Assembly: GCA_027315205.1 (NCBI GenBank)
Contig: DAHUYM010000001.1
Coordinates: 248,001-312,000 of the forward strand
Source: Leptospirillum sp.
GTDB lineage: Bacteria; Nitrospirota; Leptospirillia; Leptospirillales; Leptospirillaceae
DNA: 64,000 nucleotides
Direction of reading: 5' to 3'
Shown here: piece by piece, positions 50,848 to 59,977 of the stretch
Layout of the letters: each line of letters starts with the position of its first letter
Position numbering within the stretch: the first letter of the stretch is position 1
Translations under genes and position numbers: made by a program
The notes under the pieces: model-generated
What the model was told of the DNA's origin: nothing
Seen by the model: the letters and a program-made list of their open reading frames with translations, nothing else
Database searches by the model: none

Positions 50848-51774
50848 ATCGACGTCCCACAACCACCGAACCGGTTTTCCACCCATGGGATCGGGTGGGC
50901 CCTCATGGCGGCCCTTCTTTTCGGGGTGTCGACCCCACTTTCCAAGCCCCTGGCCCTTGAAATGTCGCCTCTCTGGCTCGCGGGGTTCTTCTATACGGGA
51001 TCGCTTTTGGGCATCCTGCCCGGATTCTTTCCCCGCTTAGGAATGAGACCGGCGTCGACCGCTTCATTCCTGTCGATCGGAGTTCTCGAGCGAGCGGAGA
51101 AAGTGGCCCTGGCCGCATCGATCCTGATCGGGGGCGTCGTCGCCCCGGTTCTTCTGGTGATCGGTCTGACACGGTTTCCCGCGTCGCGCGGAAGTCTTTT
51201 GATGAACGCCGAGTCGGTCTTCACGGTTCTCTTCGCCTACATCCTGTACCGGGAACGGATGACACTACGGCTCATGGTCGGTGCCGCGCTCGGATCCACC
51301 GGGTGCGCAGTCGCGTCCCTGAATCACGCGAGCGGTGGGTCCGGTGGCGCCCTTTTCTTCCTGTCCGCCGCTCTTCTCTGGGCGCTGGATACCAATATTC
51401 TGCGGGTACTTTCCGGGGTCAATCCGCTGGCTGTCACCGTGTGGAAAGGGATCGGGTCGGCCCTGTTCCTGATTCCCGCAGCCGCTCTCACCGGACCGCC
51501 GCCCCATTCTCCCGTCCTCGTTCTCTGGGCGCTCGTCGTCGGATCCTTCGGCTACGGTTTTTCTCTCGTCTGCTTTCTCAGGTCGATCCGTGGCATCGGC
51601 GTTTCCAGGACCGGAGCCTGGTTCGGGTTCTCCCCCTTCATCGGAGCGGTCCTGTCCATCGCGCTTCTGAAAGAGCCGGTCACGCCGGCATTCCTGATCG
51701 CATCGGGAATCCTGCTCCTGGCGGTCCTGACCCTCCAGGGTTTCAGGATGCCCCGGGTCAAACGTACGTCTTGA
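50848..51774 (+). CDS. EamA/DMT-family transporter, start uncertain
   Basis: A roughly 300-residue ten-helix EamA exporter; first helix reads GIGWALMAALLFGVSTPL. No ATG, GTG or TTG precedes this helix in frame after the thpR gene. An ATC at 50848 lies 6 nt after GGAGG (50837-50841), while the first canonical start, ATG 50905, would cut off part of helix 1. The coordinates use the ATC as a hypothesis. The gene converges on the RuBisCO-like gene with a 17-bp overlap. Substrate unknown. Confidence 0.82.
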   Translation: MDVPQPPNRFSTHGIGWALMAALLFGVSTPLSKPLALEMSPLWLAGFFYTGSLLGILPGFFPRLGMRPASTASFLSIGVLERAEKVALAASILIGGVVAPVLLVIGLTRFPASRGSLLMNAESVFTVLFAYILYRERMTLRLMVGAALGSTGCAVASLNHASGGSGGALFFLSAALLWALDTNILRVLSGVNPLAVTVWKGIGSALFLIPAAALTGPPPHSPVLVLWALVVGSFGYGFSLVCFLRSIRGIGVSRTGAWFGFSPFIGAVLSIALLKEPVTPAFLIASGILLLAVLTLQGFRMPRVKRTS

Positions 51775-52936
51775 ACGCGTCCAACGCCTGGGACAACTCT
51801 TTGTGGGTCTTTCGGTAGGTTTCGAGGGGGATGCCCTTCTCCAGGGCTTCCCAGGCCTGCCTGATAGACTTTCCTCCGGCCTTCGCCCCTCCCGGATGGG
51901 CGCATACCCCCCCGCCGCAAAGATAGACGAAGTCAGGACCGAAGAGGCGTTGATGGACTTCCATCGTCCCGGCATGCATACCTCCGCCGACTGCGATCAG
52001 ACTCTTCCGGACCTTGCCCATCGGAATCCCGCATGCCGCATGAACAGAATCGAGATCTTTCCGGGTGGCTTTCAGCGTCCCCTGGAGCGCGGGATACAGG
52101 ACGATATCCGCACCCGCGAGCCTCATGAACTTGGCCCACGAGCCCACGGTCATCCCGTCCTTGTGCCACAGCCATCCGGACATCGCCATGTGCGCCATGA
52201 TCGGAGCCTTCTTGAGTCGCGCCAGTTCTTCGAGCATCGGAAAACCGGACGCCGCGGGGGAAAGCATGGCGATCTGGGATCCCAGCCTTGCCCCCTCGAC
52301 ATACCTCTCCCCCATCCTGGACGGCGTATCGACCGTGTGCATCATGACCCACTTCGGCTCTCCCGTTTCCTCTTCCGCCCGGCGTGCGACCTCCAGCGTC
52401 CTCTTGAGCCTCGCGACATACCGGTCGAACGGTTCCTGGAGGAGTTCGTCCGATTTCACCACGTCCATCCCGCCGATAAGGCTGTCGTAGGCGATCTTGG
52501 AGTATTCGTCAGGGGAAAGTCCCTGGGAGGGCTTGATGACCGTGATGAACAGGGGCCTCGACGGGCCGCCTCGCTTTTTCCGGATCCCGTCGATGCCGAA
52601 CTGGGGGCCGGGAAGCCGTTCGGCCATGGCCGCGGGGGGCACGAAATCCGTCAATTCGATGGATTTCAGGATGTTGAGACAGCTGATTTCTCCTGCGATC
52701 GAAAGCAGAAGGCCGTAGACGGACGTAATGTTCTGGCAGGGGACATCGATGGTGAGAACTGCCTTGTTCCTCGAGACCGACACGTCCTCGACCCGGGCTT
52801 CGAATCCTTGTGTCGACCGATTTTCGTAATCGGTTTTCTTGACGCCGAGACTCATTTCCCGGGCTACGAGTCCGGCCGCTTTCCTGATGTCGGACGACGT
52901 GATGGTATAGGTCGCGCGTATGACTTCGGTCGCCAT
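51758..52936 (-). CDS. RuBisCO-like protein (form IV)
   Basis: A 392-residue RuBisCO-fold protein. The catalytic lysine corresponding to K175 is in TVIKPSQGLS, where the second lysine (K177) is Ser; the carbamylated lysine and two metal-binding acids are kept in GGMDVVKSDE. No loop 6 GK(M/L)EGE motif exists; the corresponding region reads ALQGTLKATRKD. The phosphate-binding GGG of CGGGVCAHPGG is present. Hence a RuBisCO-like protein, possibly an enolase or isomerase in sulfur or thiomethyl metabolism. ATG 52936 is preceded by AGGAGA. Confidence 0.93.
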   Translation of the reverse strand: MATEVIRATYTITSSDIRKAAGLVAREMSLGVKKTDYENRSTQGFEARVEDVSVSRNKAVLTIDVPCQNITSVYGLLLSIAGEISCLNILKSIELTDFVPPAAMAERLPGPQFGIDGIRKKRGGPSRPLFITVIKPSQGLSPDEYSKIAYDSLIGGMDVVKSDELLQEPFDRYVARLKRTLEVARRAEEETGEPKWVMMHTVDTPSRMGERYVEGARLGSQIAMLSPAASGFPMLEELARLKKAPIMAHMAMSGWLWHKDGMTVGSWAKFMRLAGADIVLYPALQGTLKATRKDLDSVHAACGIPMGKVRKSLIAVGGGMHAGTMEVHQRLFGPDFVYLCGGGVCAHPGGAKAGGKSIRQAWEALEKGIPLETYRKTHKELSQALDAFKTYV

Positions 52937-53097
52937 GCTCTCTCCTTCGGTGTCCGGGATTCTGCCCGGGGGTTGAACGGTCGAAACCGTATCATGAACA
53001 ACACGGAGTCTCTTGCCAAGAGGAAACGACACGGGCGTTCTGTCCGTCGAATCCGGAGGACATGTGACACAGGTTCGGGAGGGGCTCGGAAGGCTGT

Positions 53098-57256: not shown

Positions 57257-58303
57257 TTGAAAAACGGATTGGGGCTTGTCATGCCCTTCTTATGGGCATC
57301 GGTGATTCTGGGAAGCCTGGCGTTTTCCATCCACCTCTACCGCCAGACGTATCGCGCGGGAACGGTCTTTACACCCGCCGTGCCGAGGATGCAGAGACCG
57401 TTCGATTTTAAGGCGGACAAGAAAGACCTGGGCGCTTTTACGGGTCCGGTCCTCCTCCTGTCCGTCAAAAAGGAAAGAAACGCCCTTTGGAGCACGCGAT
57501 ACTGGAACCCGGGATCGGTCGTTCTTGAAGTGCCGGTCCAGGTGACATCCTGCGGTATCTGCGTCCGGTTGGCCCTCTGGGATGCGGGACAATATTCGGT
57601 GGATCTTTCCGATCCCGGCACGGGACGGGTTGTGTCAAGGTCCTCCCTGAAGGTCGTCGTTCCTCTTTCCGTCTATAGAAACGACGTTTTGCTCCTTGGC
57701 GCGATCCTGGCATTGTCGTTCCTGTCGGGACGACTCGCCTCCGGGACCCTGTTCCAAATCCTCCCCCAGGCCTTCCAGAACCGGAAAAAATACGGGATTT
57801 TCTTGGCCGGGCTGGTTTTTTTCGCCCTGGGCCTGATTCTGCTTCCCTATCCCGAAACGGCCCCCCCCAGGGGGCACACGATTTCACATTCCCCCGGCCC
57901 GACCTTCGAATCCGAAGGCCGCCCGGACGCCGTTCCGGCTTTTCTCGGAACCAATGTTGGACAAGGAGGATCCGGCGGAGTTCTCCGGATTTGGCACCAC
58001 ATGGACAACTGGACCGAGTTCGGTCGGACACTGACCCTTTTCGAAGGGCCGGTCGGCCCTCTATCGCCCCGGAACGCATTCTTTCTGCCACCGGACGACG
58101 GCCGGTATTTCTTGACGTTCTGGCATTCGGCCTATCCTGGCCTCTCGTTCGAAGAGGAAAACGGGCTTTTCCGCGCCCACCCCGTTTCTCCCCCGTTTCC
58201 CGCGGGGATCTACCTGGGTCTGGCGCTCCTGTCTTTCGCCGGTTTTTCGAGGGGGGCCCTTCCCCCCGCAGGGAAAGTGTCCAGACGATCGAATCGTCCT
58301 TGA
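57257..58303 (+). CDS. membrane protein of unknown function
   Basis: A 348-residue protein with an N-terminal helix (about 7-27), two central helices (about 138-155 and 176-193) and a C-terminal helix (about 319-337), framing two soluble, probably periplasmic domains. Cysteines appear in VTSCGICVRL. No family was recognised. ATG at 57257, 28 bp after the barrel gene, so it is likely in the same operon. Confidence 0.7.
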   Translation: MKNGLGLVMPFLWASVILGSLAFSIHLYRQTYRAGTVFTPAVPRMQRPFDFKADKKDLGAFTGPVLLLSVKKERNALWSTRYWNPGSVVLEVPVQVTSCGICVRLALWDAGQYSVDLSDPGTGRVVSRSSLKVVVPLSVYRNDVLLLGAILALSFLSGRLASGTLFQILPQAFQNRKKYGIFLAGLVFFALGLILLPYPETAPPRGHTISHSPGPTFESEGRPDAVPAFLGTNVGQGGSGGVLRIWHHMDNWTEFGRTLTLFEGPVGPLSPRNAFFLPPDDGRYFLTFWHSAYPGLSFEEENGLFRAHPVSPPFPAGIYLGLALLSFAGFSRGALPPAGKVSRRSNRP

Positions 58304-58328
58304 CATATCGATCGAAGGGGCCTATTTT
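58300..58328 (+). promoter_or_regulatory. near-consensus promoter before the structured leader
   Basis: TTGACA (58300-58305), 17-bp spacer, TATTTT (58323-58328), overlapping the end of the membrane-protein gene. Confidence 0.65.
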
Positions 58329-58333
58329 TGTCA

Positions 58334-58358
58334 ACGCATTTCCCTCCCGGAAATGCGT
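58334..58358 (+). other. 5' stem-loop of the predicted transcript
   Basis: ACGCATTTCC and GGAAATGCGT form a perfect 10-bp stem around CTCCC, at or just after the predicted transcription start. Confidence 0.55.
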
Positions 58359-58425
58359 CCGGAACCTTTAGGACAAACCGGAAGACTTTTTCGGGTCTTC
58401 ACCACACTGATTGCGAAGGAGAAGC

Positions 58426-58533
58426 ATGGACGGCAATTCGCCCCTGCCCCCCAGACACGAGGGATTTGGAAAAGGTCCCCGGTGCCGGGAGGATCGTCGG
58501 CAGGTTCGTATCGCCGCCCGTCCGCCTTTGTAA
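58426..58533 (+). CDS. 35-codon leader ORF
   Basis: ATG at 58426 follows GAAGGAG; the 35-residue product is rich in Pro, Arg and Gly, with no known homologue. It lies between the 5' stem-loop and the sequestering hairpin and may act as a leader peptide rather than a functional protein. Confidence 0.4.
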   Translation: MDGNSPLPPRHEGFGKGPRCREDRRQVRIAARPPL

Positions 58534-58541
58534 CTGCGCCG

Positions 58542-58586
58542 GTTCCTTTCCGAATCCCGTCTTGTTCGCGTTTTTCGGAAAGGAAC
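58542..58586 (+). promoter_or_regulatory. stem that hides a ribosome-binding site
   Basis: GTTCCTTTCCG (58542-58552) and CGGAAAGGAAC (58576-58586) form a perfect 11-bp stem with a 23-nt loop. The 3' arm contains AAAGGA, the ribosome site for the ATG at 58593, so the stem could switch translation. Confidence 0.5.
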
Positions 58587-58592
58587 AGCACC

Positions 58593-58688
58593 ATGCGTCA
58601 CTTCAATTGGAAATGGATCGGAAGAACATTGGCAGGGGTCTTTTCTCTCCTGGACGGTCCGGGAGTACGGGGAAGGCTCCTTCTGTAA
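58593..58688 (+). CDS. 31-codon ORF controlled by the hairpin
   Basis: ATG at 58593, stop at 58686-58688. The 31-residue product starts RHFNWKWIGRTLAGVFSLL, basic and amphipathic. Its ribosome site lies within the 3' arm of the preceding stem. No family was recognised; whether it is translated is open. Confidence 0.4.
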   Translation: MRHFNWKWIGRTLAGVFSLLDGPGVRGRLLL

Positions 58689-58689
58689 T

Positions 58690-58738
58690 GAAAACCCGCC
58701 TACGACGGCCGGTCCTGGCCGGCCGGTCGTCCCGGCGG
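58690..58738 (-). terminator. hairpin terminator after the VOC gene
   Basis: On the minus strand CCCGCC and GGCGGG enclose a nested CCGGCC-rich stem, followed by TTTTCATT. It overlaps the end of the VOC gene and also the end of the short-ORF transcript, so it may stop both. Confidence 0.5.
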
Positions 58739-59122
58739 GAGGTCGAACGTCGTGATCTCTATCCAGTTTCCGTCCGGATCGAAGAAATAGATCGACAGGC
58801 TGATCCCGTGGTCGTCGTACGTGTACGGGATGCCCCGCGAACGGATCTCTCCCAAGGCTTCGTCGAAATCCTCGATGGCGATATTGAAAGCCAGATGGCG
58901 GTCGGGATCCCGGTCCTTTTTCTCCCAGCCTTCGTTGGGCGGGGTGTTGGGGGGGTAGATCAGGGCGACGCAGGTATCTTCCCCGGCGCACAGCATGGCC
59001 GGATAATCGCCCCATTCCTTTTCGTAACGGCGTTCGAGCCCCAGCACGTCCTGGTACCACTGAACCGATCGTTTGATATCGGTGACAGGAATCGCGACAT
59101 GGTCGAGCCGACGAATCTTCAT
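58700..59122 (-). CDS. VOC-family (glyoxalase-like) protein
   Basis: A 140-residue metal-dependent VOC protein. The N-terminal strand RLDHVAIPVTDIKRSVQWY, central RHLAFNIAIEDFDEAL and C-terminal FFDPDGNWIEIT match the glyoxalase/bleomycin-resistance fold with metal residues His and Glu. Function within the family cannot be decided. ATG at 59122 follows GGAAAGGAAG. Confidence 0.85.
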   Translation of the reverse strand: MKIRRLDHVAIPVTDIKRSVQWYQDVLGLERRYEKEWGDYPAMLCAGEDTCVALIYPPNTPPNEGWEKKDRDPDRHLAFNIAIEDFDEALGEIRSRGIPYTYDDHGISLSIYFFDPDGNWIEITTFDLPPGRPAGQDRPS

Positions 59123-59205
59123 TCTTCCTTTCCCCTCTCCTCCCGTTAAAAAGGCCCCGGTCAAGTCTTGGACCCCTTCCTATCGTACCATCCGCAAAGG
59201 TCCGA

Positions 59206-59235
59206 TTGACAATCCCCCGGACGAATTCTTAAAAT
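59206..59235 (+). promoter_or_regulatory. promoter of the CdhB/PorE-like gene
   Basis: TTGACA (59206-59211), 18-bp spacer, TAAAAT (59230-59235). It leaves an untranslated leader of about 150 nt, including a hairpin CCGATT-GAA-AATCGG at 59268-59282. Confidence 0.6.
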
Positions 59236-59395
59236 AAGGGTTCCTCGGATTGTAGAAGACCTTCACACCGATTGAAAATCGGAACGATAAACACGCTCGG
59301 TCTCCCGGTATCCACGGGGTGGAAGGGTTGACCACAGATCGGCTTTCCTCTGGGCTGAGGACCGAAATATCCCACGTTATTTTTAAGGAGAGACA

Positions 59396-59977
59396 GTGTC
59401 CCAATATCGCGTAGTCGCCGGACCGGAAGCCTTTTTACCCCCTGCCGCATCTCTGATGGGTATCGTTCTTCCCGATCCCGGGCAGGGTCATATCGAAGGG
59501 CGGCTCGTTCCCGAAGAGGAAGCGATCGAAGAAGCCGCACGACGGCTGTCCAAGGCCACGTACCCGACCTTCTTCCCGGGACCCCTGGTTCTCTGGAAGT
59601 GGAACGAAAAATCCGCCAAGATGGCCAAAGTGATCAAACGGGCCGCGGTGGAAGGCGGAATCCACATCATTCCCATGTCCGACTATCGACCGAAATACCC
59701 CAAGATCGATCCCGAGACAGAGATCAACCCGAACCACCCGAACCTCACGATCTGGCACAACAAGATCGACGTCTGCCTTTTCGTCGGCGTCCATTGCCAC
59801 CAGGCGAACCTCGCCCTGAAGATCATCCGGGGCGGAACCAGCTGCTACACCCTGGCGTTTTGTTCGTTTGCCGGACACGAAGATGCCAATCTCTCCGTTC
59901 GCGACACCGGCCCGGAAAAATTCGACCTCCTGACTGATTATCTCAAGAAAATGAAGACGAACTCCCGGGGCTTCTAA
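59396..59977 (+). CDS. CdhB/PorE-like subunit of a ferredoxin oxidoreductase
   Basis: A 193-residue protein resembling the CO dehydrogenase/acetyl-CoA synthase epsilon (CdhB) fold, as also described for fifth (epsilon) subunits of pyruvate:ferredoxin oxidoreductase in reductive-TCA bacteria. GPLVLWKWNEKSAKMAKV and VGVHCHQANLALKIIRGG are the visible blocks. Other subunits are not in the window, so pairing with PorDABG is inference. The GTG at 59396 follows AAGGAG. A strong terminator ends the unit. Confidence 0.65.
   Translation: MSQYRVVAGPEAFLPPAASLMGIVLPDPGQGHIEGRLVPEEEAIEEAARRLSKATYPTFFPGPLVLWKWNEKSAKMAKVIKRAAVEGGIHIIPMSDYRPKYPKIDPETEINPNHPNLTIWHNKIDVCLFVGVHCHQANLALKIIRGGTSCYTLAFCSFAGHEDANLSVRDTGPEKFDLLTDYLKKMKTNSRGF

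Follow-up and report, generated by a model that had tools for sequence, protein, structure and literature searches.

Within the window (the whole 64,000-nt stretch of DNA analyzed here), a gap of ~396-397 nt between two convergent genes holds an element in which a predicted promoter, two perfect stems and two small ORFs are arranged on the plus strand (Table 1). The host assembly, a member of the Leptospirillum family of the Nitrospirota, measures 2.0 Mb and is 99.9% complete, and the membrane-protein gene upstream of the gap matches Leptospirillum records at 45-48% identity. A preliminary description of the region had reported the promoter, a perfect 10-bp 5' hairpin, a 35-codon ORF with a good ribosome site and a 31-codon ORF, all of which we recovered. 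It had also reported a perfect 11-bp stem whose 3' arm contains the ribosome site of the second ORF; the stem is perfect and holds that site, but is 13 bp long. Elsewhere in the window, a 424-aa minus-strand ORF (51758-53032) is RuBisCO-like in appearance, as judged by eye. Beyond the glyoxalase gene, a strong promoter match (TTGACA-18-TAAAAT, 59206-59235, 11/12) stands ~160 nt ahead of a plus-strand gene (59396-59977; leader of 160 nt, 59236-59395) with a match (PF02552, E 8e-39) to the CO dehydrogenase beta / acetyl-CoA synthase epsilon subunit family.

Table 1. Features of the intergenic element and its flanking genes (window coordinates)
Feature	Position	Strand	Remarks
Upstream neighbour, membrane protein, 348 aa	57257..58303	+	Conserved Leptospirillum-family protein; no Pfam family
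Predicted sigma-70 promoter, TTGACA-17-TATTTT	58300..58328	+	10/12 consensus matches
Perfect 10-bp hairpin, 5-nt loop CTCCC	58334..58358	+	At predicted transcription start
Weaker 8-bp hairpin, GAAGACTT-TTTC-GGGTCTTC, G-U pairs included	58381..58400	+	z -1.8, unremarkable alone
ORF1 ribosome site (SD1), AAGGAG	58416..58421	+	ATG 4 nt downstream
ORF1, 35 codons, MDGNSPLPPRHEGFGKGPRCREDRRQVRIAARPPL	58426..58533	+	Weak coding signal
Perfect 13-bp stem, 19-nt loop	58542..58586	+	ORF2 ribosome site within 3' arm
ORF2 ribosome site (SD2), AAGGA	58580..58584	+	Entirely within stem, 8 nt ahead of ATG
ORF2, 31 codons (31 aa), MRHFNWKWIGRTLAGVFSLLDGPGVRGRLLL	58593..58688	+	Charge +4; weakly hydrophobic centre
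Strong G+C hairpin, CCCGCC...GGCGGG	58695..58739	-	Overlaps glyoxalase stop; TTTTC next on minus strand
Downstream neighbour, convergent, glyoxalase/bleomycin-resistance superfamily protein	58700..59122	-	

The predicted promoter is the sole sigma-70-like site within 57600-58450, where 0.1 would be expected in 850 nt. Its -35 box (58300-58305) overlaps the upstream gene's stop codon and is separated by the 17-nt spacer from a -10 box (58323-58328) that matches the consensus at only 4 of 6 positions. RNA polymerase would be expected to start at ~58334-58336. The first base of the 10-bp hairpin (arms ACGCATTTCC/GGAAATGCGT, 58334-58343/58349-58358) lies 6 nt past the -10 box. The hairpin would thus stand at the start of the RNA and shield its 5' end; folded as a 27-nt slice chosen to fit the hairpin, this segment reaches -13.7 kcal/mol (z -7.6). 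The same 25-bp palindrome might act at the DNA level as an operator for a dimeric repressor rather than as an RNA hairpin, since half-sites of 10 bp without mismatch lie at the transcription start, a common operator position. We regard this as highly improbable: the other genomic sites with at most one mismatch are all intragenic, and the palindrome motif is not commoner in the window than in shuffles (8 vs 6.5). Together these two observations indicate no operator regulon, and any such site may be a private one.

In the predicted transcript (58334-58700) SD2 has an unpaired probability of 0.00 and the 13-bp stem (arms GTTCCTTTCCGAA, 58542-58554, and TTCGGAAAGGAAC, 58574-58586) a mean pair probability of 0.98, which supports the view that the ORF2 ribosome site would be sequestered by the stem. 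The 67-nt stem region alone folds at -24.8 kcal/mol (z -3.7) and is more stable than all of 200 shuffles. SD1 has an accessibility of 0.51, and is thus about half paired in the predicted fold.

From this architecture the preliminary description had proposed a translation switch, with ORF2 opened by ribosome movement on ORF1 or by a ligand; sequestration of the ORF2 site is borne out by folding, while opening by either route is unsupported. Under a translation attenuation model like that of erm, cat or toiL, stalling of a ribosome on ORF1 would release an ORF1 segment to pair with the anti-SD arm, thereby exposing ORF2. A candidate partner is present in ORF1 (58463-58472, GATTTGGAAA) and could form 10 bp with 58547-58556, but an alternative helix of this length is expected in 26% of shuffles. 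We also blocked a 30-nt ribosome footprint at successive ORF1 positions and recomputed the pairing, a thermodynamic calculation without kinetics. Footprints at most positions left SD2 closed; it opened partly only with the ribosome at codons 1 to 5, reaching 0.35-0.40 at codons 1 and 5 (0.39 at the ORF1 start), or near codon 27 (0.22), and a maximum equally high was reached in 3 of 100 shuffled leaders in a coarser scan. Both arms of the stem lie past the ORF1 stop (58533), the 5' arm beginning 9 nt beyond it, so that ribosomes finishing ORF1 would not be expected to melt the stem by passage or termination. In addition, SD1 is itself half occluded, and ORF2 falls outside every known resistance, biosynthesis or toxin gene family. 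The modelled case for an ORF1-driven switch is therefore weak, and attenuation is in our judgment an unlikely account of the locus.

Searches for relatives of the element returned little. By blastn it is single-copy in its own genome, matching only the window itself, and among 60 relatives the one other match (40 nt, E 2.6e-4, in G043) lies within an apparent coding stretch; 295 other genomes of the phylum and collections of plasmids and phages gave no match. Searches of 20 other family genomes with the ORF1 and ORF2 peptides yielded noise only, as did single-sequence covariance models of the two structured halves run against family and phylum genomes. Weak matches that were inspected fell within unrelated coding genes (L002, L077, L083, L121 and L124, the first in an apparent coding stretch). 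A mobile element or repeat was rejected in view of the single genomic copy, the lack of flanking repeats worth noting and the lack of plasmid or phage matches. The preliminary description had named conservation of the stems and ORFs in relatives as a check on its proposal, and none was found among the genomes searched, all of other genera of the family or phylum; because none of the host's own genus is among them, absence would be expected for a young element too.

Two genomes, G004 and G001, carry the same convergent gene pair with ~26 nt from the upstream stop to the aligned glyoxalase end and no element between them, and the upstream gene is followed by another neighbour in three further Leptospirillum-type genomes. 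G001 and G004 are assigned to different genera and are identical in sequence at this locus, and G001 has a further copy of the upstream gene that differs from the first; on these two grounds G001 may be a mixed assembly. Because the element is absent both from the relatives searched and from the G004/G001 junction, it appears from these comparisons to be lineage-specific, having been gained or much enlarged after the split from the compared genera. The same near-touching gene pair, together with the lack of conservation anywhere searched, is consistent with neutral intergenic DNA, in which ~380 nt were gained or kept and the stems, ORFs and promoter are coincidences or relics with no selected function. 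We consider this reading quite possible, if short of probable.

A codon score trained on the 47 long ORFs of the window was compared with 33-codon pieces of real genes and with wrong-frame pieces. ORF1 falls at the 10th percentile of the real pieces and above 73% of the wrong-frame pieces, and ORF2 at the 20th percentile and above 87%, respectively. Codon usage is thus equivocal, neither proving nor excluding translation of either ORF, and a coding signal this weak also sits comfortably with neutral DNA. Neither peptide has a family in Pfam, NCBIfam, PHROGs or PADLOC. The ORF2 product has a GRAVY of 0.19, and its best 15-residue mean of 0.87 includes R and D. The earlier statement that nothing longer is encoded in sense downstream holds in substance: a 153-codon sense ORF (58688-59149) that starts in the ORF2 stop (TAATG) is an antisense shadow of the glyoxalase gene, whose antisense frame is free of stops in 8 of 16 orthologues because of codon usage. 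An in-frame 111-aa ORF from 58353 was also rejected, having no ribosome site and a coding score below average.

A structured non-coding RNA, with functional hairpins and incidental ORFs, would agree with the weak coding signal and with a hairpin at the 5' start, and the fold of the whole 405-nt stretch is more stable than that of 98 of 100 shuffles (z -2.5). We nevertheless judge it rather unlikely. Both ATGs are preceded by correctly placed ribosome sites, and a covariance-model search of the region against Rfam was negative even with E relaxed to 5, a result that likewise leaves a riboswitch or other known RNA without backing. Furthermore, such an RNA would lack its own terminator: within the gap the plus strand has neither a U-tract terminator nor an end signal comparable to the G+C hairpin at 58695-58739. 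On the minus strand that hairpin folds at -32.6 kcal/mol (z -2.6 against shuffles) and most probably terminates the glyoxalase transcript, because TTTTC comes after it on that strand. A weak terminator-like site at 58900, inside the glyoxalase gene, is not above chance level. A plus-strand RNA from 58334 would, if unterminated, be antisense to glyoxalase.

To gauge how unusual the layout is, 2000 dinucleotide shuffles of the 397-nt gap were scored, counting ATG ORFs of at least 25 codons with a ribosome site. A perfect stem of 10 bp or more turned up in 50 shuffles. A pair of such stems was seen in one of the 2000, a perfect stem of 13 bp or longer in one, and two qualifying ATG ORFs in one. 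As genomic background we used 332 kb of the same contig, a single contig with 56 kb of gaps. Its intergenic DNA contains 18 stems of 10 bp or more, 2 of them in this gap where 0.13 would be expected, and the 13-bp stem ranks third in length. The two longer perfect stems, of 15 bp with a 3-nt loop at contig position 82188 (TTTTCCAGGTTCCTT) and of 14 bp with a 10-nt loop at 2697 (TTGGACAATATGGT), are both without a U-tract after them. A promoter of at least 10/12 occurs in 16 of 164 gap-strands and two such ORFs in 5 of 164; three of these five also have such a promoter, and the present gap is the shortest of the three. Single features are therefore ordinary and the combination alone is uncommon; the layout is unlikely to follow from composition alone, with the chance figures being upper limits on surprise because the features were picked after reading the sequence. 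That other gaps on the contig carry two small ORFs or long stems agrees with neutral DNA. Against it stand the rarity of the joint layout in shuffles, the perfection of the stems, given that stems without selection decay, and their placement exactly at the expected 5' end and at a ribosome site.

Our best explanation, held tentatively and judged equally likely as neutral DNA, is a lineage-specific short transcript whose second small ORF is silenced by its own hairpin. The transcript would carry both ORFs, with ORF2 predicted by folding to be silent while its ribosome site is buried in the 13-bp hairpin, and translated only when the hairpin is opened or bypassed. This could come about through a landing zone for ribosomes further upstream, through cleavage of the RNA, or through a ribosome held on the ORF1 start; the last has weak in silico support from the footprint calculations. 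In favour of a transcript, the promoter, 5' hairpin, ORFs and stem are correctly ordered within 397 nt; counting against it are the lack of a homologue, the equivocal codon usage, the lack of a plus-strand terminator and the imperfect -10 box. A more specific and doubtful version is that the locus is a newly born self-silenced small-protein gene of an acidophilic iron oxidizer, having arisen between two convergent genes and perhaps encoding an orphan peptide of the type I toxin kind; its translation would have to await opening of the hairpin through landing-site use, cleavage or stalling. To our knowledge, small proteins and their RNA control have hardly been studied in the Nitrospirota. If ORF2 is indeed translated under hairpin control, the phylum would have in this locus an orphan small gene equipped with a regulatory leader; if not, the locus serves as a warning that a convincing-looking promoter, stems and ribosome sites can co-occur in a lineage-specific gap without conservation.

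Several known systems resemble the element in part. Stabilizing 5' hairpins of the ompA type are stable stem-loops at the very 5' end of bacterial mRNAs, and the locus shares with them a stable stem-loop at the 5' end of its predicted transcript, the start site being predicted as well. In the E. coli toiL leader, the topAI ribosome site becomes unmasked when ribosomes stall within a short ORF (PMC12121999). With toiL-topAI and the ermC/ermB leaders of Gram-positives (PMC12121999) the element shares a short upstream ORF, here ORF1 with its AAGGAG site, and after it a hairpin in which the next ribosome site is hidden, and in silico a ribosome at the ORF1 start partly opens that hairpin. However, the toiL-topAI hairpin pairs the upstream ORF with the ribosome site, whereas both arms here lie beyond ORF1, and the downstream product is just 31 aa and has no recognized function. 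In layout, with a 5' hairpin, an upstream small ORF and a small ORF whose own structure sequesters it, the element is like the tisB toxin mRNA, where 5' structure together with a distant single-stranded site gives ribosomes access to a sequestered ribosome site (PMC7708055). The type I toxin-antitoxin locus tisB-istR1 of E. coli (PMC7708055, PMC7667032) and the present locus share a 5'-terminal hairpin, a long leader, a sequestered small-ORF ribosome site (SD2 in the predicted fold) that follows a possible single-stranded landing site at a distance of ~100 nt or more, and a small-ORF product of similar length. In contrast to tisB, the locus shows no recognized SOS box and no sequence kinship, and its ORF2 peptide is not clearly membrane-spanning. 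A simple consensus scan, a weak test, found no minus-strand promoter of at least 9/12 for an antisense RNA at 57600-58450 or 58200-59200. There is also no regulated downstream gene of recognizable function, ORF2 having no family and the next sense ORF being the glyoxalase shadow. With neither an antisense RNA promoter nor a recognized toxin or regulated gene of known function found, the data do not support membership of either system, and at best the locus may, by analogy, work in the manner of tisB or toiL.
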